This document shows positions 7,521-18,893 of a stretch of DNA of 20,367 bases, one piece after another. The notes below the pieces were generated by a model. It was not told where the DNA came from. It did not search any database and saw only the letters and a list, made by a program, of their open reading frames with translations. How positions within the stretch are numbered: position 1 is the stretch's first letter; each line of letters opens with the position of its first letter. Position numbers and translations under genes: made by a program. The stretch comes from a virus. Location of the stretch: the IMG/VR virus record IMGVR_UViG_3300027752_001318, positions 1 to 20,367 of that record; one strand, 5' to 3'.

Positions 7521-10262
7521 TTATTTTACTTTTAACATGTTCCTTTTTACAAGGTTTTTATTGCCATGTGTATCTTCCGCTTCTAACTGAATTGAATAGT
7601 CTCCAGGTTCTTTAAAGATGTACGTCAGCCACATATTATTATAGTATATATCAGTGATTTCTGGGTTAGTTATATTAGTGATGGTCCATTTTGCATTTTT
7701 ACTACCAGGAAACTTAGAAATATCAGTAGATATAGTGACATGTGTAGATTTTTCAATTTCTGCATAATCACTAAAAACACGAGTATCGTCATATGTTGGG
7801 TTATAATGTTTTACATGATTCTCTCCACTTATATTAGAATTAGAACCAATAAAAGCCTTAATACCAGCCTCTTCAAAATCATGAGTTCTAGAATACTCCC
7901 ACCCAACCGCTAAAATAAACCTAAACACATCGCTTATGTCATTGTCATCTACATCTTCAAATACTGCATTGTAATTAAATTTGCTAATTATAGGATCTGT
8001 ACTTGCATTTAACTCATCCATTATCTGTTTCCATCCATTAACGTCATTGACCGTAGTTGGTGTAGCATTTTGTATAACATGTTCACCTATTTCAATAAGA
8101 CCAGTTGTTGGATTTCTATATTTAATAAATAACTTTTCGCTATTTCTTATATCGTTTATTTTAAAACTCGCAGCTAAATCAGGTCCAATCCTCATATAAT
8201 CCCACGCTAAGTGTACTGTATCAGACCAATTGAATGAAGATTCGTCCCATGTATATGGTCCAGTGGTTTCACTAAAACCAACCTCTGTATATGTGTCTAC
8301 ATATCTTCGCACAGTTGAAAACCTAATACCCTGATCCTCTTCAAAATGAATATAATTTGCTCTGTCAAGTGTTAAATATAAAGTTGCTATATCTTCATCT
8401 ATTGTTGTTTTATTGTCCTGAGGCAAGTCCCAGTAACCACCAGACTTTGACCATGGTAATTTCTTGTTGTCCCATGTATCGTATTCTAGCCACTTGTATA
8501 TTCCGTATAACTCTAATTGCTTTAATTTAATATCGATTAAATCATCCATTCTATAATGAGATCTATGTCCAAATAGATCATAAGTTCTCATCTCTACAGT
8601 ATACACATCAGCATATGGTAATATCAACGGAAGCACCAAGTAGTCATCTATCGCACCTCTATATGTCTCATTAAACCCTCGGTCTTTACTAGTAACTATC
8701 CATTCTATCTCATATACCCATGATTTCCACCAATTGTCCCAAGTTACTAATAAATTAGCGTTAGGATCGTGTGCGTCTTCCCATGTGAAAATAGCTTCAT
8801 CCCATATATCATCAAATGATTCAGTACCGTCTAATATTACTGGACATCCAATAGGAATATTTGGGTTATATGAATGTAATTCTCTATCATGATACGTTTC
8901 ATAGAATTTCTTAAATATATCCTTTAGTTCTGTCCTACCAGATGTATCCAATGTATCCTCATTAGCAATTCCCAAATTTAGAAATAAATTATAATTAGAT
9001 GCATCGTCGTTTTGATCTAGCGAAGGTTTTAAAACCATAGACATATCTTCTATAAACAATTGTCTATCATTAGGAAATGCACTAAATTTAATGTCATGTC
9101 CTTCACTGAAGTAATCTATACCATTCTGAATATTCCATACATTAATATTTCTTTGTGTAAAATAATCACCTTCAGCTGTAATATCTATAATTTTAGCTTG
9201 AAGTGGTAGATATTCTTTATGTAATTTAGCCTTTAAACCATATAGTTTAATTAAAACTTCTTCTGGTGTATAATCAAATACCTCATCCACATTTGGAATA
9301 TCCCAATGATCAAACGTACCATTAGGTTCGTTCAATCTATAAACAAGACTAAACTTACTAGTCTTTTTCATAGTATTAGAAGGTAATTTAAAAGGCAATT
9401 TCTTCCTAGTAGCTTCACCTCTAACTGATGAATGTGGTACTGGTACAGCAAATAACTTACCGAAATTCTTAACTGAATTATTAATATTTAACCAATACTC
9501 TTTTAAAGTAATCTTATCATAACCAAAGAAATCAATTGCGTTTAGTACTGCTTTATATGTACCAACAAATGGTTTAATGTTATGTAATTCTAAAAGTAAT
9601 TCTTTTCTCTTTCTATTTAACAACTGAAAATCAGGAGACATCTCACTAATGTCATGATCTTTAAATAACATAAAATCTGATTCACTTAATGTAGCTCCAA
9701 AATTCTGTAAAAGTACTTTTAATCTTTCATCTTCTGCAACGACTTCTCCATAGATTTCTATCACAGCTATGAGAGTCTTAATACCTGCAGATTCATTATA
9801 CATATTTAGATTTCTAATATGTGGCCCAGCAGTTGATGAATTTAATGTAATATTAATTTGTATTGCAGTGTTGTCTTGTTCTAATAATTGTTTTACTCCA
9901 GCATCATATGCCGCTATTTTACTAGAATCAACTAAATCAGTTTTTTGTGATTTTAATTCTTTAATAACTGGAAGGTTACCATTATTATCAATTTCATACA
10001 TGATAATATCTTTACTACCAACTTGTCCCTCTTCATTCCACTCAAACAAAAACTTTTCGTCATTTGAAGTTTCAGCAACCGGAAAATTTATAATAGGATC
10101 ACCTGATAGTTGGCACTCTTCTAATATAAACAAATTAATAGTTTCATATAAACCCTCAGAAACTTCTGGTAGGTAAACAGTACCCTTAAATACACCAGAA
10201 GAATTCTTAGTGAAATTTAAATCGTAGTCTGTTCCTTTAAAAAATCTTAAGTTATTATACAT
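7521..10262 (-). CDS. Baseplate wedge protein, gp7-like (913 aa)
   Basis: This is a large baseplate protein directly downstream of gp6 and a 94-residue gene, the position of gp7 (1032 residues) in T4. Residues 1-95 look like a beta domain. Residues 215-260 contain KRKELLLELHNIKPFVGTYK followed by NAIDFFGYDKITLKEYW, a pattern I associate with wedge and tail-I-type proteins of large myoviruses. Residues 332-370 (EEVLIKLYGLKAKLHKEYLP, then AKIIDITAEGDYF) look like another conserved wedge block. The middle is very rich in Trp and Asp (WDEAIFTWEDAHD, TWDNWWKSWVYEIEW). Residues from about 835 form a PKD/Ig-like domain (YIFKEPGDYSIQLEAEDTHG). The start overlaps the previous stop as TAATG. The gp7 assignment rests mainly on synteny and size; the structural role itself is firmer. 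Confidence 0.6.
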   Translation of the reverse strand: MYNNLRFFKGTDYDLNFTKNSSGVFKGTVYLPEVSEGLYETINLFILEECQLSGDPIINFPVAETSNDEKFLFEWNEEGQVGSKDIIMYEIDNNGNLPVIKELKSQKTDLVDSSKIAAYDAGVKQLLEQDNTAIQINITLNSSTAGPHIRNLNMYNESAGIKTLIAVIEIYGEVVAEDERLKVLLQNFGATLSESDFMLFKDHDISEMSPDFQLLNRKRKELLLELHNIKPFVGTYKAVLNAIDFFGYDKITLKEYWLNINNSVKNFGKLFAVPVPHSSVRGEATRKKLPFKLPSNTMKKTSKFSLVYRLNEPNGTFDHWDIPNVDEVFDYTPEEVLIKLYGLKAKLHKEYLPLQAKIIDITAEGDYFTQRNINVWNIQNGIDYFSEGHDIKFSAFPNDRQLFIEDMSMVLKPSLDQNDDASNYNLFLNLGIANEDTLDTSGRTELKDIFKKFYETYHDRELHSYNPNIPIGCPVILDGTESFDDIWDEAIFTWEDAHDPNANLLVTWDNWWKSWVYEIEWIVTSKDRGFNETYRGAIDDYLVLPLILPYADVYTVEMRTYDLFGHRSHYRMDDLIDIKLKQLELYGIYKWLEYDTWDNKKLPWSKSGGYWDLPQDNKTTIDEDIATLYLTLDRANYIHFEEDQGIRFSTVRRYVDTYTEVGFSETTGPYTWDESSFNWSDTVHLAWDYMRIGPDLAASFKINDIRNSEKLFIKYRNPTTGLIEIGEHVIQNATPTTVNDVNGWKQIMDELNASTDPIISKFNYNAVFEDVDDNDISDVFRFILAVGWEYSRTHDFEEAGIKAFIGSNSNISGENHVKHYNPTYDDTRVFSDYAEIEKSTHVTISTDISKFPGSKNAKWTITNITNPEITDIYYNNMWLTYIFKEPGDYSIQLEAEDTHGNKNLVKRNMLKVK

Positions 10263-10546
10263 TATCTAGTTTTCTTTGTATTTTGATCGACCGTGTAATT
10301 TTTATAATTATGCAAATATCTTGCGCCCTTTAAAAGGTTTTTAATAGCATCGTCTAAAAACACTAAAAAGTGTCTCATTGTTTGATTTCTTTGAATGTGA
10401 CCAGACAACGATCTTCCCATAAACTCCCCGGGTGCTAACTCATTTTCATAGTCATAACCATCGTTCAATCTAGTATCTTTCCTAGTTTTCACAGAATCAT
10501 ATCTTCGACCTTGCTTATATTTAAATAAATTTGTAAATAATCCCAT
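10262..10546 (-). CDS. Small conserved-context virion or assembly protein, function unknown (94 aa)
   Basis: I do not recognise this protein. It is basic, with many Lys/Arg (FKYKQGRRYDSVKTRKDTRL near the N-terminus), then an acidic patch (YENELAPGEF) and an amphipathic helix (RHFLVFLDDAIKNLLKGARY, residues about 58-77). It has no signal peptide or membrane helix. It is joined to both neighbours by one-base TAATG overlaps, to the gp6 gene before it and the gp7-like gene after it, so it is probably made in step with the wedge proteins. It could be a small wedge subunit or an assembly helper. The absence of an alternative frame over this span and the tight coupling make it a real gene. Confidence 0.7.
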   Translation of the reverse strand: MGLFTNLFKYKQGRRYDSVKTRKDTRLNDGYDYENELAPGEFMGRSLSGHIQRNQTMRHFLVFLDDAIKNLLKGARYLHNYKNYTVDQNTKKTR

Positions 10547-12375
10547 TATTTAAGTGCTTTTCTATTTCCAGACTGTACTCTAGTGTATATAGTTCTAGGA
10601 ACAGGGTCTGCTTCAAAATTTATACTAATTGCAGCTTCAGCATTTAGTAATACATCATCCTCTATTACATCTCCATCTCTATCTTGCCATCCACCTCTGA
10701 ATACTGCAACCTCTTCTTTTTCCATGATAATATCACCCCATTGATCTAGACCTTTTATACTGTAAGGTATATCAGTTGACTTATCAACTGGAACCACCTT
10801 TACATCTTCTATTTTCTTAAAGAAAACGTATTTTTGTTTTCCATTACCAATAGTCTCCAGCGTTACTGGCTCTTGTGGAACAACGCTAACGTTAATAGAT
10901 TCAAAATATCCATTCTTTAAAGCTGTCTCTTCTGTCTCTGAAATAAACCTAATGTTTACTGCATCGATTCCATCAACATCTTCTAATATATAAATGATAT
11001 CAGATTTAGGTAATTTATCTCTTCGAGTGATATTTAGTAAATAATCTGAAAGTTTAGTTCTAACATTTGTATAAATTTCTTCTTTAGTATAACCTTCGAA
11101 ATATCTAATATTGATGTCAATACTATAATACCTCACTTTTGGTTTAACAAATACAACTTCCGTAGTTACCATCTGCTGCCCACTGTCTTCGAGTACCTTT
11201 TGCATTGCATCATATTCACCTTGATCAAAGAACATTTCTTCCTGAGGTATGCTAAAATAATCTTGATTTTTAGCTAATTTCTTTTTCATATCCGGAACCG
11301 CGAAAATATAAATAACATTATCGTCATCCAAGTATTGATCATCTGTTGTGTTATATGCATCTATGTACGAAAACATATTGTATCTTGATAAGAAATACTC
11401 ATAATTATCTGGCGTTGCCAGTACGAATGATTTACTAGCCAATGGTGTCATTATTTTAGTGAATTTTGTATTCTCTCTATCACTACCCATTTTAGGTGAA
11501 GAAGTAATAGTCACATCTAAAAATTCATTCAAATCATGTTCTGTTCCGTTCGAATCTGTACCAGATCCATCCCATTTGATTGCTAAATCCGGCGAATCAT
11601 CTAAATTACCCGCAATACCAACATGTTTTACATATTCTACTTCAATACTAGCACCTAAAGGTGGAATCATACCAAACGATTTATTTCCAAAATAAAGATC
11701 TAATCCTCCACTAATTCCGGTTTTAATTAAATATGCCTTTTCATCAGATAAGAGATCATATAGAGATTCATGCTTCATCCACTTTTCACCATTGACACTA
11801 ACACTAACTTTACTGTGATCAGTTATTCCACCGGTATTTATATTAAATGATTGTAATTTGTTACCGTTAGATGTTACCGTTTGTGACTCAAATTCACCTT
11901 GAATGATAGCAGTTTTAAATGAACTGTAATTTGTTTTCTGTAATTTATATCTATCTACTGAATTTAATAATGTATAGGTTAAACCATTTGCTTCGAATTT
12001 AAGTTTTGATCTACCTTCTATGTTTAGTGTATTTCCAGCAATCTTTGCCATATCTGCACCAGGCTTCCATCTAAATGTAATTTCACCAGTTGATGCAAAA
12101 CCTCTCGTAGAGTCATGGCCAGTTAATCTAGACATACCATATATTGACTCAGGTTGTTGAGCAGTATATATGTTTTGTTCTACAACAGAATCCTCTATAT
12201 AGAACATAATAAGATCCATCATTTCTGATAAGACGCTTATTATCTGAGCGAACGGCGATGCAACAGTAAACAGAGTTTCTGCCCTGTTGTAAACCCTAGA
12301 AATATACGTCCTAGCGTCTGCCTTTATAGCATTTGCCCCGGTTCTAATTGTACTTAAAAATTTTAATTCTGCCAT
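10546..12375 (-). CDS. Baseplate wedge protein gp6-like (baseplate J family, 609 aa)
   Basis: This is the structural protein that, as in T4 gp6 (660 residues), would form the ring of dimers joining the baseplate wedges. Residues 45-105 carry the usual N-terminal pattern: a helix (ISVLSEMMDLIMFYIEDSVV), then IYGMSRLTGHDSTRGFAS and a GEITFRWKPG strand. The C-terminal part holds the baseplate-J-like block IDINIRYFEGYTKEEIYTNV followed by LSDYLLNITRRDKLPKSDII and DVDGIDAVNIRF, where a phage tail usually has a substrate-binding-like alpha/beta domain. The gene follows gp25 after 17 bases, the classic gp25-gp6 order of T4-like phages and contractile injection systems. The start is preceded by ACATAAATAATG. 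It is slightly shorter than T4 gp6 but appears complete. Confidence 0.85.
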   Translation of the reverse strand: MAELKFLSTIRTGANAIKADARTYISRVYNRAETLFTVASPFAQIISVLSEMMDLIMFYIEDSVVEQNIYTAQQPESIYGMSRLTGHDSTRGFASTGEITFRWKPGADMAKIAGNTLNIEGRSKLKFEANGLTYTLLNSVDRYKLQKTNYSSFKTAIIQGEFESQTVTSNGNKLQSFNINTGGITDHSKVSVSVNGEKWMKHESLYDLLSDEKAYLIKTGISGGLDLYFGNKSFGMIPPLGASIEVEYVKHVGIAGNLDDSPDLAIKWDGSGTDSNGTEHDLNEFLDVTITSSPKMGSDRENTKFTKIMTPLASKSFVLATPDNYEYFLSRYNMFSYIDAYNTTDDQYLDDDNVIYIFAVPDMKKKLAKNQDYFSIPQEEMFFDQGEYDAMQKVLEDSGQQMVTTEVVFVKPKVRYYSIDINIRYFEGYTKEEIYTNVRTKLSDYLLNITRRDKLPKSDIIYILEDVDGIDAVNIRFISETEETALKNGYFESINVSVVPQEPVTLETIGNGKQKYVFFKKIEDVKVVPVDKSTDIPYSIKGLDQWGDIIMEKEEVAVFRGGWQDRDGDVIEDDVLLNAEAAISINFEADPVPRTIYTRVQSGNRKALK

Positions 12376-12392
12376 TATTTATGTATACTTTT

Positions 12393-12749
12393 TTACTGCA
12401 TGCTTATTTTTATAGCATATCTACTATCTATCGTAATATCTATGAAAGCCATATCTCTAACCTCGCCTTTTACAAAATCTATCTTAACTTCCAAGTTATA
12501 TTTACTAGCAAGCGGACAATATTGATTCAATTGATCTGTAATTACAGCTTTTATGTTGTGTGCACTAGATCCAAAATCATATATAAGTTCTTCTAAGTTA
12601 CACCCAAAATTATGACTTCCCATAACTTCACCAGTATTTGTAAATAAAACAGTTTGAATCTGTGTGATTAACATTTCTATTTCATCATTAGTCTGAACTT
12701 GAGTTTCGTCGTAGTTAGGATCACTAAGATATTTTATATATAATTCCAT
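12393..12749 (-). CDS. Baseplate wedge protein gp25-like (GPW/gp25 family, 118 aa)
   Basis: Length and sequence fit the GPW/gp25 family, the small conserved wedge protein that joins the baseplate to the sheath and helps start sheath polymerisation. Visible hallmarks are the segment DEIEMLITQIQTVLFTNTGE (residues about 23-42), the conserved GSHNFGCNLEELIYD (about 44-58), and the C-terminal beta strands with VRDMAFIDITID. Related proteins in T6SS (TssE) and other contractile systems carry an EPR motif near this point; here the region reads FTNTGEVMGSHNFG, as in other gp25 proteins with a relaxed motif. It is followed by gp6 in the expected order. The gap before it is 22 bases, and the leader is ACATAAATAAATG, almost the same as in front of gp6. 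Confidence 0.88.
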   Translation of the reverse strand: MELYIKYLSDPNYDETQVQTNDEIEMLITQIQTVLFTNTGEVMGSHNFGCNLEELIYDFGSSAHNIKAVITDQLNQYCPLASKYNLEVKIDFVKGEVRDMAFIDITIDSRYAIKISMQ

Positions 12750-12771
12750 TTATTTATGTATCTCTATTTAT

Positions 12772-13614
12772 TTACGAATGCATCATCCAGTCAACACCTT
12801 CATCACCCTTGATCTCTTCATCAATTGCAGATAATTCATCGTCTCCCATTGATTTAATAGCATCGTAATCAAAATCTACATTACCTGGTAGTGCAAACTT
12901 GAAGATCGCTAATTTAGAACCAATGGATTGTTTTACTTTAGCACTAACATATCTAAAGAATATTTCATCGGAGTATAGCGCGCAATCAGGTATAGTTTCA
13001 TATAATTCTAATATAACATCACCCTTCGGCGTGTCACCCATGAACTTTAATTCTCCAGTTAAATTAGAGTAACTATAAGAAATAGGATTGTTTAATATTT
13101 GTCTAGTTAAATCTTGCATAGAAGCATTCAATACATAATATTGTAATTCTTCTGCAGCTTCAGACATTCCTCCACCTTCATACATTCCTTTAAACAGCAT
13201 TCTGTCCATAGAAAAATCAGAGCCAGAATCGAATCTTACATCCATTCCGCCTCCACCGCCATTCCATCCTGACTGAAGGTCATATAATCCATATACTGAA
13301 TATACTCCACCTCCACCATCTAAACTAGGGCCAGGTAGATTAAGTGTTCTACGACTTTTAAAATAATCAGTACTAAATATAGAATGTGGTATATGATAAT
13401 AGTTTTCTTTTACAGAATATTCATACTTCTTATAGAACCATTTTTTAGCTCTTTTGATTATATTAATAATTTCTTTTTGTGGTAAATTAATAGGTACCAT
13501 ACATGCTCCAGTGATGTCATCACCTAATTCTTCTAAAAATGCATTTAAACAATTAGGATCAAAATACCTTCCAGTTGTAAGATCATTATTCGAACCGCTT
13601 CTAATTTCACTCAT
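12772..13614 (-). CDS. Neck/baseplate-like virion structural protein with glycine clusters (280 aa)
   Basis: The family is not certain. The N-terminal part (1-95) has the helix QKEIINIIKRAKKWFYKKYEY, typical of proteins in large myoviruses that sit near the neck or baseplate. Residues 97-150 hold three glycine clusters (100-103, 119-123, 147-149) in a stretch rich in Tyr, Met and Asp, probably a flexible loop. Residues 150-255 are again ordered: a helix at AAEELQYYVLNASMQDLTRQ, a beta hairpin (TGELKFMGD, GDVILELYE), then FFRYVSAKVKQSIGSKLAIF and LPGNVDFDYDAI, a helix and LPG layout I associate with large-phage structural proteins of this position. The C-terminus is acidic. It lies one base after the amidoligase gene and 22 bases before gp25, so it is expressed with the wedge genes. 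A gp13/gp14-type or gp53-like role is possible. Confidence 0.55.
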   Translation of the reverse strand: MSEIRSGSNNDLTTGRYFDPNCLNAFLEELGDDITGACMVPINLPQKEIINIIKRAKKWFYKKYEYSVKENYYHIPHSIFSTDYFKSRRTLNLPGPSLDGGGGVYSVYGLYDLQSGWNGGGGGMDVRFDSGSDFSMDRMLFKGMYEGGGMSEAAEELQYYVLNASMQDLTRQILNNPISYSYSNLTGELKFMGDTPKGDVILELYETIPDCALYSDEIFFRYVSAKVKQSIGSKLAIFKFALPGNVDFDYDAIKSMGDDELSAIDEEIKGDEGVDWMMHS

Positions 13615-13615
13615 T

Positions 13616-14926
13616 TTATTCTTTTATTTTTTTACTTACTACTATTTCAGTGTCTTCAAATCTAGCACTGTTTGTCATAAAACCTTCTCTGAATATACCA
13701 CCTATCATTTTACCTTTAAACATGGTATCACGACCAGCAACATAACAATTAGTTAACTCACAACTACCGTGTGTGTAACTAGATTCTACCTTGGATTCTT
13801 TTACTTTAGTACCTTTATATAAACTACCCCATTTGATAGCCGATCCAGATATATCGCAATTATAAAAACTTGAATTATCTACATTTCCCGCTATTTCGCA
13901 ATCAATAAATTCAAAGTTCTCTAAAAAATACACAGTTGGGAATTTACCATCCTTGATCTGAACAGCACCGTAGTCCGAGTCATAATTAATAATACCCTCA
14001 GTCATTGATCCATTTACTAATAAATCCATTACTCTCAATTTAAACCTCTCCCAGTGTACCTTTACGATTGTGGGATTGTCTTGTAAATCGGTCAGTATTT
14101 GTATATCTGGCCAATTCTTTGAAACCGCTGAGTAATCTTTTAGCATATCAGAAACTGGTTTATTCCTATTTAAAATTCTTTGAAGTTCAATTTTATTTTC
14201 ACTACTAAATCTGGCATCATTACATGATTTCCACATTTGCATTAAAAAACTCTCAGTTAGATATAATATATCATCAACTTTCTTTTCATAATCCGCACCA
14301 CCGATATATCTAAACTCTAAATAATTCTTCTCCTTCTTAGAAAAGTTTATTCCGTAATATTTAGTATCGGCAAATTTAAAATTATTAGAAGCTATTTGAT
14401 TGGCATCAAAATGAAATGCTTCCCATTTTGGCATCACCCATTTAACACTTTTTGCATACGCAGATTTTTCTCTATCCGGAAATAACTTATAAACTTGTTT
14501 TTCGTCAAACTCTAAAATGAATTTAAGAACATTCATCTTCAAGACAGTGTCTTTATCCTCTAGATATTTTTTATCAAATGATAAGTTGATGTGTATTGAT
14601 GCTCTATCATTGGTATACCCATTCTTAGATATCCAATCGAGCACTTTAATAACCATTATTCTGGCATTTCTATAGGGGATTGGCCCAGTCACTAGTTCTA
14701 CTAGTCCTTTACCACCAGACATATCTGGTTCTATTTTAAACTCTTCAGCTGAAGGTTCAAAATCACTATGTGCTTTATCCTCTAATCTAATCTTTCGATC
14801 TAGAAGCTTTGCCAGAGATTTTCTGGTTACTTCTAGATCGAGATCAGAATAGAATTCAAACTCAACACCCATGAGTGCTGCGTTCAATATTGATTCTCTC
14901 GGAGAATCTATAGTTAATTTTTGCAT
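13616..14926 (-). CDS. Amidoligase-fold enzyme with C-terminal beta-helix-like domain (436 aa)
   Basis: Residues about 16-235 match the glutamine-synthetase/GCS-fold amidoligase (Amidoligase_2) layout. There is GVEFEF at 20-25 (the GxExE metal/ATP motif), then an ELVTGPI block at 77-83, SIHINLSF at 110-117 with His112 and Asn114, and YLEFRYIGG at 202-210 with the E-F-R motif, followed by a long helix. Enzymes of this family use ATP to form amide bonds between a carboxylate and an amine, often on peptides. All main motif positions appear filled, so activity is plausible. Residues about 333-432 are a different module with repeated short strands (IDCEIAG, FYNCDISGS, VKESKVESSY, CELTNCYVAG, ARFEDTEI), like a pentapeptide-type or right-handed beta-helix. 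The gene sits between the S1-like gene and the baseplate genes and has its own candidate promoter. Its substrate is unknown: a virion protein, host protein or cell-wall peptide. Confidence 0.7.
   Translation of the reverse strand: MQKLTIDSPRESILNAALMGVEFEFYSDLDLEVTRKSLAKLLDRKIRLEDKAHSDFEPSAEEFKIEPDMSGGKGLVELVTGPIPYRNARIMVIKVLDWISKNGYTNDRASIHINLSFDKKYLEDKDTVLKMNVLKFILEFDEKQVYKLFPDREKSAYAKSVKWVMPKWEAFHFDANQIASNNFKFADTKYYGINFSKKEKNYLEFRYIGGADYEKKVDDILYLTESFLMQMWKSCNDARFSSENKIELQRILNRNKPVSDMLKDYSAVSKNWPDIQILTDLQDNPTIVKVHWERFKLRVMDLLVNGSMTEGIINYDSDYGAVQIKDGKFPTVYFLENFEFIDCEIAGNVDNSSFYNCDISGSAIKWGSLYKGTKVKESKVESSYTHGSCELTNCYVAGRDTMFKGKMIGGIFREGFMTNSARFEDTEIVVSKKIKE
13631..13930 (-). other. Beta-helix-like repeat module in the amidoligase protein
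   Basis: This encodes residues about 333-432. Short strands recur every 8 to 10 residues with small or aromatic inward residues and Cys/Asn ladder positions (C343, C357, C389, C394). It does not strictly follow the A(D/N)LXX pentapeptide rule, so a general right-handed beta-helix or pentapeptide-related fold is the safer description. It may bind the substrate or anchor the enzyme to the particle. Confidence 0.5.
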
Positions 14927-14951
14927 ATTAAGATTATGATATTACCGTTTC

Positions 14952-14961
14952 AATATATATC
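14952..14961 (-). promoter_or_regulatory. Candidate phage late promoter box GATATATATT
   Basis: The coding-strand sequence is GATATATATT, in the 56-base gap before the amidoligase gene. It matches the boxes at 1161-1170 and 16301-16310 at 9 of 10 positions. The distance to the ATG is 25 bases, the same as at the S1-like gene. Function is inferred; it could drive the amidoligase and the whole wedge cluster downstream. Confidence 0.45.
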
Positions 14962-14982
14962 ACACTCTCGTTGCAATAGTTA

Positions 14983-16275
14983 TTAAGGCATTTTCAAGAA
15001 GACTTTCATAGAGTCAACATCGATTCTGGTAATCTGTACTGTAATAGGATCTCCCGATTTAAATACACTCATTACCTCTTCGCTCAATTCGCTAACATGT
15101 AGCAGTCCAGTCACACCCTCTTCTATTGTAATAAACAAACCGTAATCTTTCTTAGTCTTTACCGTTGCCTGTATTACAGAAGGAATCTGATATCTTGATT
15201 GTATGTCTAACCAAGGATTAACCGTTATATTAGCTTTTTGTGTTAGAGTAATTTTAGTATTACTAATAATATCTTTAACCATAAATGAAACTTCATCACC
15301 TGGTTTAATATCTCTAGCTTTAAATTTAGCTAACGTGTCTTCATCTAAATCATTATTATGTATCATTCCAGTTAAACACTTGTTAAATTCTACAAATACA
15401 CCATATTTAGCAGTACCTGTTACGTTTCCTATAAGTGTTTCACCCTGTGTTTCTTTTAATGACTCTAATTCACTAGGTATTAATGCTTGTAAGTATTTTC
15501 TGTGTGAAACTACCAACGTGCCTCGTTCTGGTGAGAAACTCACTGGAACCACATACATTTCTGTTCCAATAATAGAACCAAAATCATGCAATTTATTAAT
15601 TCCTGCTAGTGATCCTGGCATAAAGCATTCAATTCCTTGTATTAATACCATGTAACCTCCGTTTTCAATCATGTGTGTAACTGTACCAATCCATGCAGTT
15701 CCTCCCGATTCGACAGCTTCCCTAAGATCCATAAACACCTTGTGTTTAACACCTCCATTAATACTTCCCAGTACATGAGAGTTTTTACTTAGCTGAGTAA
15801 TTAATACTGCAGTCTCGTCTCCTGGTTTTAATGACTGAACATCTGCGGGTTCTTTGTCATATTTTACATATATTAATTCTCTGTAACCTATATCTACACT
15901 AATAAACTCAGAACTAACTGCGTATATTTTACCCTCATGAATTTCTCCTGGGTTTAGAATAGTTATAACATTTCCTAATGATTCGTCATGTGCTGAAAGA
16001 ATGTCATACATTTCTTGAGCATACACTTCCCTAGAAAATACTTTATCTCCATTCTGTGTTTTTATATGTGGATTGTGTTTTCGCGTTCTTGATGGGCAAG
16101 TAGCTTCAAATGCATCCCAATCAAATTCTCCGGCTTCATCAAAGAATTCTGCACCTTCAGGTCCAGAATCTTCCTCTTTTTTTAAGTTTTCAACAATTGT
16201 GTCTAGTTCTTCAACTGGTGTTTGATTAGTTTTGGTTTCGCCAATTCTAATTCTTTTGTTTTTTTCGTTGTTCAT
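14983..16275 (-). CDS. Ribosomal protein S1-like RNA-binding protein with four S1 domains (430 aa)
   Basis: Four S1-type OB-fold domains can be seen at about 108-172, 192-258, 277-347 and 364-428. The last two are the most typical (GNVTGTAKYGVFVEFNKCLT then GMIHNNDL; KTKKDYGLFITIEEGVTGLL then HVSELS). The first 107 residues are charged and probably disordered, with FDWDAFE at 51-57 and VYAQEMYDIL at 84-93, which resemble the N-terminus I recall for Bacteroidetes S1. Cellular S1 binds A/U-rich mRNA leaders and helps the 30S subunit start translation; S1 homologues are known from some very large phages. Bacterial S1 usually has six domains, so this is a shortened form. The expected role is to favour or protect phage mRNAs, which here have SD-less A/T leaders. 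A plain RNA chaperone role is the alternative. It has its own candidate promoter upstream. Confidence 0.85.
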   Translation of the reverse strand: MNNEKNKRIRIGETKTNQTPVEELDTIVENLKKEEDSGPEGAEFFDEAGEFDWDAFEATCPSRTRKHNPHIKTQNGDKVFSREVYAQEMYDILSAHDESLGNVITILNPGEIHEGKIYAVSSEFISVDIGYRELIYVKYDKEPADVQSLKPGDETAVLITQLSKNSHVLGSINGGVKHKVFMDLREAVESGGTAWIGTVTHMIENGGYMVLIQGIECFMPGSLAGINKLHDFGSIIGTEMYVVPVSFSPERGTLVVSHRKYLQALIPSELESLKETQGETLIGNVTGTAKYGVFVEFNKCLTGMIHNNDLDEDTLAKFKARDIKPGDEVSFMVKDIISNTKITLTQKANITVNPWLDIQSRYQIPSVIQATVKTKKDYGLFITIEEGVTGLLHVSELSEEVMSVFKSGDPITVQITRIDVDSMKVFLKMP

Positions 16276-16300: not shown

Positions 16301-16310
16301 ATTATATATC
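16301..16310 (-). promoter_or_regulatory. Candidate phage late promoter box GATATATAAT
   Basis: The coding-strand sequence is GATATATAAT, in the 45-base gap between the 618-residue gene and the S1-like gene, 25 bases before the ATG. The surrounding GGATATATAATA is a perfect match to the site before the Ig-repeat gene. In such AT-rich DNA a single match means little; the evidence is that all three largest gaps hold it in the same orientation. Confidence 0.5.
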
Positions 16311-18179: not shown

Positions 18180-18893
18180 TTATTTACCTTTTTGTTGATA
18201 GTTAATATGTGTACTTGATAGTTTACCTACGGTTACTGGTGTAGGTGGCATCGGTGGTCCGGATGGTCCAACTCCCGTTGGGTGAATATGTGCATTATAA
18301 TCGTCTAACCACATTTGTAACCAATCTTGTAGAGATTGCCCTCTAACTGCTGGTTCTGTCTCATCTGCACCTGGTTCACCTTCATTTGAAACGAATATAT
18401 CACCACAGTCTAAGAACATTTTCGCATCCGTGCTTATCTTAATGAATCCTTCTTCGTCTATTTGTATCATTGGTCTCTCTTTAGCTCCACTACCGCGAGT
18501 GATAACCAAACCATCCTCAGGAGAATGATATATTCTTACATTTCGCTCAGCATCATATACTAAACTTATAACATCTTGTGGTGCATCAGATGTCTCCAAT
18601 ATATCTGTTTTTAAATCGTCATTTTGATCTATTTGAAACCAATATTCTGGATGATATATGTTACCATTATCAAATCTAACTGCAACTATGTCACCAACTC
18701 TTGGTACATGATGAGAACCCACTGCATCTCTATTCATGGGCGTTGCCCATGGAATTGAATCGTTTTCAAGTTTATCAAATTTACCATAAACTTTAACACG
18801 ACATCTACCATTAAGTAAAGGATCTTCGTTTACTACGACTTCTCCTAACCAATGCGAATCTCTTAAATTATCTTGAAAAAGCTCATCTGCCAT
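18180..18893 (-). CDS. Baseplate spike protein, gp5/gpV-like OB-fold, no lysozyme domain (237 aa)
   Basis: Residues 14-88 match the gp5/gpV N-terminal OB-fold: HWLGEVVVNEDPLLNGRCRV leads into IPWATPM, then VPRVGDIVAVRFDNGNIYHP. Residues 108-170 have short alternating strands (VRIYHSPEDGLVITR, IQIDEEGFIKIST, KMFLDCGDIFVS), as in the beta-helical needle. Near the C-terminus, WLQMWLDDYNAHIHPTG (residues 191-207) carries HxH (His202, His204), which in short spikes such as P2 gpV binds a metal ion at the tip; it is followed by a Gly/Pro-rich tail. T4 gp5 has a lysozyme domain between OB-fold and needle; it is absent here. The protein would form a trimeric membrane-piercing spike under the tail tube. 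It is joined to the gene before by a TAATG overlap. Confidence 0.82.
   Translation of the reverse strand: MADELFQDNLRDSHWLGEVVVNEDPLLNGRCRVKVYGKFDKLENDSIPWATPMNRDAVGSHHVPRVGDIVAVRFDNGNIYHPEYWFQIDQNDDLKTDILETSDAPQDVISLVYDAERNVRIYHSPEDGLVITRGSGAKERPMIQIDEEGFIKISTDAKMFLDCGDIFVSNEGEPGADETEPAVRGQSLQDWLQMWLDDYNAHIHPTGVGPSGPPMPPTPVTVGKLSSTHINYQQKGK

Follow-up and report, generated by a model that had tools for sequence, protein, structure and literature searches.

Phage amidoligases and start-hiding leaders

LUZ24- and phiEco32-like phages encode an amidoligase in a cassette with a glutamine amidotransferase and an ATP-grasp protein. The cassette is located among early/replication genes, and peptidoglycan modification is the role ascribed to it (PMC3890496, PMC5498523, PMC10580990). 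In the Pseudomonas phages tf, LUZ24 and UFV-P2 (also in phiEco32 and PSA-HP1), the amidotransferase of the cassette is of class II, and a second COOH-NH2 ligase accompanies it together with the ATP-grasp protein. The amidoligase described here has the Amidoligase_2 family, the motif order and the encoding by a phage in common with this cassette, but is solitary and late, has a fused pentapeptide-repeat module and is encoded within a neck-baseplate operon. A homologous catalytic domain with the invariant residues kept is present in the 'Amidoligase enzyme' of Agrobacterium phage Atu_ph07 and in the products of genes 124/125 of Salicola phage SCTP-2. Unlike the gene studied here, these are not adjacent to a neck gene: the Atu_ph07 gene lies beside a lysin-like gene near the portal gene, and the SCTP-2 genes, two tandem copies, are near the head maturation protease gene. 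The respective alignments span the catalytic domain only, with the pentapeptide tail unaligned.

In the leaders of the T4 genes e, soc, 49 and I-TevI, a late promoter is contained within a hairpin that hides the translational start, with e and I-TevI as the best-documented cases (PMC3014915, PMC2988022). The promoter is located in the 5' part of the hairpin, as in the amidoligase leader. T4 employs TATAAATA, whereas the amidoligase leader has GATATATA, here predicted from sequence. Unlike in T4, the gated gene is an amidoligase gene, and the tail-gene relatives of the phage mostly infect Bacteroidetes. In Bacteroidetes, mRNA structure tunes translation, which proceeds without Shine-Dalgarno sequences (PMC6847099).

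The amidoligase gene and its operon

The window, i.e., the whole stretch of DNA analysed, is a 20.4 kb piece of an uncultured tailed phage in which every large gene, including all of its genes named below, is on the minus strand. The amidoligase gene (13619..14926; ATG at 14926, stop codon at 13616-13618) is a real open reading frame of 436 aa on this strand, which the preliminary description had left unspecified; the plus strand is closed. Its product consists of a catalytic domain (residues 1-235; 14222..14926) with invariant residues and a nonsynonymous rate below that of the linker in all tested pairs, a helical linker (residues 236-310; 13997..14221) representing the fastest-evolving portion of the protein, and a C-terminal pentapeptide-repeat β-helix (residues 311-436; 13619..13996).

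Transcription order starts with a gene for a 484-aa protein, followed by a gpV-type baseplate spike/hub OB-domain gene (18180..18893; Phage_base_V, E 7.5e-8), a gene for a 618-aa protein, a ribosomal protein S1-like gene (14983..16275) and the amidoligase gene. Downstream are a neck (head-tail adaptor) gene at a distance of one base (12772..13614; phrog_211, E 7e-9), a gp25-like sheath initiator/wedge gene (12393..12749; weak sub-cut-off Pfam matches), a gp6/Baseplate_J wedge gene (10546..12375) and finally genes without assigned function. The previously noted position of the gene, one base from a neck-like gene and upstream of gp25 and gp6, is borne out, and likewise no partner genes of the amidoligase were found within the 20.4-kb window.

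The S1-like protein contains several S1 domains (E 2e-47 with the NCBIfam 30S S1 model), and homologues occur in 462-735 kb phages and in Lak phages. Its gene keeps a fixed place between those for spike and neck and has its own late promoter; a late-made S1-like protein is odd. The neck and gp6 genes (10546-13614) tie the phage to the Tenacibaculum phages PTm1/pT24 and Sphingomonas phage PAU, gp6 alone also to Prevotella Lak phages, suggesting a Bacteroidetes host. A related contig (L272:4157-5812) encodes a 552-aa protein with collagen repeats, the C-terminal part of which gives weak Hint/intein-like matches.

Fold and catalytic residues

The gene encodes a glutamine-synthetase-fold amidoligase with conserved catalytic residues. 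The Pfam model Amidoligase_2 (PF12224) matches residues 19-121 marginally (22.1 bits vs a cut-off of 22, E 1.6e-4); 15 of 70 non-redundant relatives match it by themselves (E<=0.01; best E 6.6e-7), and the Atu_ph07 homologue reaches 30.7 bits. All four motifs quoted in the preliminary description are present (GVEFEF at 20-25, ELVTGPI at 77-83, SIHINLSF at 110-117, YLEFRYIGG at 202-210), and the catalytic positions proposed there (E22, E24, E77, H112, E204, R206) are invariant in 70/70 relatives and kept even in Atu_ph07 and SCTP-2, which are very divergent. Further positions invariant among the 70 relatives are G20, D68, T80, N114, R152, K189, N194, G209 and G210.

An AlphaFold (AF2) model built from the 70 relatives has a mean pLDDT of 91.6-91.7. 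With the whole chain, Foldseek retrieved glutamine synthetases at E 6.5e-4, and with the model of residues 1-311 at E 1.4e-5 (prob 1.00, TM 0.34), as well as many viral proteins named amidoligase (best of these E 3.4e-11). Since TM-scores are only 0.27-0.39, the relation to glutamine synthetase is remote. GlnA, gamma-glutamylcysteine synthetase and PafA/Dop nevertheless share the fold (by Foldseek) and the ExE/HxH/ExR motif order, despite global TM-scores of only 0.33-0.39. The order GxExE, HxN, KYxxxN, [LI]EFR is common to the window protein and that of Atu_ph07, and recurs in the amidoligases of tf, LUZ24 and UFV-P2 as GxExE, HxH, KYxxxN, [VI]EFR; the E. coli GlnA counterparts are EPE, HCHMS and IEVR, a match in motif order without computed residue superposition. 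Profile-profile comparison detected neither a sequence-level match with GlnA nor a relation to the cassette amidoligases (0.1%), and the relation to these enzymes rests on the Pfam match, fold and motif order. Chance similarity of the motifs is ruled out by the Pfam match, the fold and residue invariance. The outcomes that the preliminary description had named as contrary to its assignment, i.e., no profile match, loss of the residues or a purely structural fold, were not observed.

The repeat module noticed earlier proved to be a pentapeptide-repeat β-helix, as judged from profile matches and a β-strand ladder in the model. PF13599 matched in 35/70 family members, and residues ~336-409 match profiles of McbG-like, MfpA and Qnr structures in the PDB (McbG-like and MfpA, E 7e-5 and 5e-4). 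The module would probably dock the enzyme on its target or drive oligomerisation.

Conservation and distribution

IMG/VR yielded more than 260 relatives, and at least 547 with a family alignment. In 80/80 loci gathered by neck protein search alone, i.e., without an amidoligase query, the amidoligase gene is located 1-15 nt upstream of the neck gene, so that the neighbours are indeed kept in related phages. The block S1-amidoligase-neck-gp25-gp6 is still intact where amidoligase identity has fallen to about 60%. In LR756500, a phage of 462 kb, the order S1-amidoligase-neck is seen with one additional ORF in between. The family recurs in 440-735 kb phages. In those of 634-735 kb, relatives are present, often near a gpV-like gene; in most phages of 600-735 kb the amidoligase gene no longer adjoins the neck gene. 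Distant relatives in cultured phages are those of Atu_ph07 and SCTP-2 (hhalign 97.9% and 97.4%). The two copies of Salicola phage SCTP-2 (L088:13960-17717) are divergent and located two genes before the head maturation protease gene. The 735 kb phage LR756501.1 has a second, weak amidoligase-like match (380840-381298; E 4e-5) and, elsewhere, a RimK-type ATP-grasp gene (86996-87481).

The amidoligase is under purifying selection, with a dN/dS of 0.05-0.09 that matches the low values of the spike, neck and gp6 (wedge) genes; these estimates are rough, since synonymous sites are near saturation. No homologue was detectable in the sister phages PTm1, pT24, PAU, MA9V-1, MaF61 and Lak-A1/B8, which have the same neck/gp6 genes. 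In this search PF12224 matched nowhere, and even the known copy of Atu_ph07 went undetected by the A2 profile, such that very divergent homologues could escape. The negative result in these sister phages nonetheless suggests that this tail architecture can do without the modification. No bacterial or prophage relatives were found in 84,980 species genomes at the sensitivity used, and PADLOC yielded no match to anti-phage defence systems.

Probable late promoter and leader hairpin

The element GATATATA precedes the amidoligase/baseplate operon at 14954..14961 (minus strand). Across 16 loci, it matched 32 times in 5.4 kb of intergenic sequence vs 17 times in 275 kb of coding sequence, with none on the opposite strand; two larger contigs have 44 matches in 25 kb intergenic vs 16 in 285 kb coding. 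It is located 26-49 nt before the genes for portal (gp20), prohead protease (gp21), a T4-neck-like protein, tail sheath and tail tube, and is therefore very probably a late promoter; one site is upstream of a ribonucleotide reductase gene. As such, GATATATA is a strong candidate for the late-promoter consensus of a marine jumbo-phage clade, replacing TATAAATA of T4. Generic sigma-70 promoter and terminator scans remained at chance level.

In the window, GATATATA is present before the S1-like gene (16303-16310) and before the amidoligase gene, but absent from the gaps between amidoligase and gp6, indicating that the amidoligase gene leads the neck-baseplate transcription unit. A further minus-strand site is at 1163-1170, and the element also occurs in contigs L269-L284. 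A conserved in-gene site (7645-7652, minus strand) lies near the end of the gene for a 913-aa protein, ~150 nt before that for a 201-aa protein; each related locus has about one match in coding sequence, and the last genes are perhaps transcribed from this site. In one contig (L275:2654-2680, G003), the late-promoter site before the gene for a 221-aa protein overlaps a short palindrome, AGGTTGATATATAACCT, the folding of which has a z of -2.9 in one contig and -1.5 in the other.

The promoter element of the amidoligase gene is enclosed by a conserved hairpin (14930..14969, minus strand), which ends 3 nt before the ATG and is predicted to make the start inaccessible on read-through RNA. Upon folding against shuffled sequences, only the amidoligase leader stands out among 13 gene families (mean z -3.5; others -0.7 to +0.5). 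The distance between the 3' arm and the ATG is kept at 3-6 nt, and the mean predicted energy is -14.5 kcal/mol for the read-through RNA vs -1.3 for an RNA starting just after GATATATA. Six pairs are changed on both sides, as attained by 1/500 shuffles, while covariation as a whole is modest (48/500), and on some counts the hairpin is equalled by slid versions of itself. Five contigs were returned by an exact-pattern scan of IMG/VR for the leader element, which in all of them lies 4 nt upstream of the amidoligase ATG. Rfam gave no match. The S1 leader was considered as that of a second gated gene, and no hairpin was found there. Leaders of the 600-735 kb phages are mostly without a hairpin, hence the gate is a property of the window clade and not of the enzyme family. 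The element TTAATATATA right before the megaphage genes is a promoter-like motif common to several of their genes and not a hairpin gate.

On RNA reading through from upstream genes, the hairpin would hide the start codon region, while RNA begun at the nested late promoter would lack the 5' arm and could be translated. As judged from the position of GATATATA inside a hairpin abutting the start codon, only late transcripts should thus be translatable. Since the S1-like gene shares the same late promoter, the hairpin may serve to limit the dose and not the timing. Alternatively, the palindrome could be a control region of another kind, i.e., a DNA operator dyad, an RNA-processing site or an S1-binding site: it exists in DNA too, and the gene directly upstream encodes an S1-like RNA-binding protein. 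We regard this alternative as unlikely, given the six two-sided pair changes (notwithstanding the modest overall covariation score), the 3' arm held close to the ATG and the T4 precedent for the same layout (PMC3014915).

Proposed function and alternatives

Our preferred reading, held with somewhat less than even confidence, is that the gene encodes an active, late-made, ATP-dependent carboxylate-amine ligase of the glutamine synthetase fold, which is the first product of the neck-baseplate operon and most likely has a virion target. ATP and metal would be held by E22/E24/E77/E204 and partner residues, and a carboxylate (a Glu/Asp side chain or a C-terminus) would be phosphorylated; attack by an amine would then give the amide. 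During assembly, the most likely target would be a virion protein, such as one of the neck or baseplate. The late-only control region suggests that the enzyme probably acts on new virions or the dying host and not in early cell reprogramming, and favours late action on virion or, less likely, envelope substrates. In Atu_ph07, most virion proteins are encoded in three gene clusters, one of which is CDS 170-215 (PMC6102473); the homologue (AUZ94978.1, gp196 by numbering from the portal gp198 and the core gp204) falls within this range. In view of late control, operon position and this location, a virion substrate is more likely than an early anti-host role, and we favour a virion target because of the fixed neck/baseplate linkage, the late control and the site of the Atu_ph07 homologue. 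The preliminary description had considered a phage enzyme that modifies its own baseplate, which may be the case. That this jumbo-phage lineage puts an ATP-driven amide bond, as an isopeptide cross-link or an amino-acid tag, on its own neck/baseplate proteins is conceivable, albeit doubtful at present.

Late modification of the host envelope is the strongest rival, because T4 gates its lysozyme by the same promoter-in-hairpin device (PMC3014915). A ligase altering peptidoglycan stem peptides or a cell-surface peptide could block superinfection or tune lysis, a role that has been proposed for the phiEco32/LUZ24 cassette (PMC5498523, PMC10580990) and that would suit the location of the Atu_ph07 gene beside a lysin-like gene. 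However, the glutamine amidotransferase of the cassette (GATase_6) was found in 0/16 phage records of the amidoligase family, including seven full-length 440-735 kb GenBank records, despite matches in 3/3 cassette phages (tf, LUZ24, UFV-P2) serving as positive controls. The second ligase (COOH-NH2_lig, PF14395) was matched in 0/10 records, a search which matched none of the control genomes either, and a RimK-type ATP-grasp gene is present in only 1/10 records. The gene is moreover fixed beside neck/wedge genes and not replication genes, and we therefore consider an envelope substrate improbable. Membership in an early anti-host cassette was rejected, as GATase_6 was not found in the records examined despite working controls and the gene is late.

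Two further possibilities concern the chemistry itself. The glutamine synthetase fold could support hydrolysis or group transfer, such that a group is taken off a virion or host protein or replaced there: the homologous glutamine-synthetase-like pair PafA/Dop performs ligation or hydrolysis (PMC7947786), and the residues tested here do not separate ligase from hydrolase. The families with an Amidoligase_2 profile are, however, annotated as ligases, and there is no positive sign of hydrolysis, making this reading very unlikely. A structural scaffold, that is a virion component keeping the fold without catalysis and using the β-helix for tail decoration or assembly, would agree with the operon position, the repeat module and the structural-gene-like selection. 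Yet, the listed catalytic positions are invariant in relatives down to ~30% identity, plus SCTP-2/Atu_ph07, and a dead enzyme would not need them; a purely structural role thus appears highly improbable. An active late ligase remains the reading that we prefer.

Significance

Amidoligases as such are no novelty in jumbo phages, since homologues are already named 'Amidoligase enzyme' in public databases (e.g., that of Atu_ph07). What is new is the solitary, baseplate-linked, pentapeptide-fused and putatively hairpin-gated form of a phage amidoligase. Neither this form nor its fixed baseplate linkage or late gate was found described in the searchable open-access literature, most subscription journals lying outside it. 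To our knowledge, the known covalent cross-linking of phage particles (HK97 capsid) is autocatalytic. If the virion is the target, the amidoligase would represent a dedicated enzymatic, not autocatalytic, covalent maturation of a contractile phage tail. Even if it is not, a solitary, late, morphogenesis-linked class of amidoligases stands apart from the known early cassette. The promoter-in-hairpin leader would carry the control logic of T4 lysozyme and soc to a distant jumbo-phage group, the closest named tail-gene relatives of which mostly infect Bacteroidetes.
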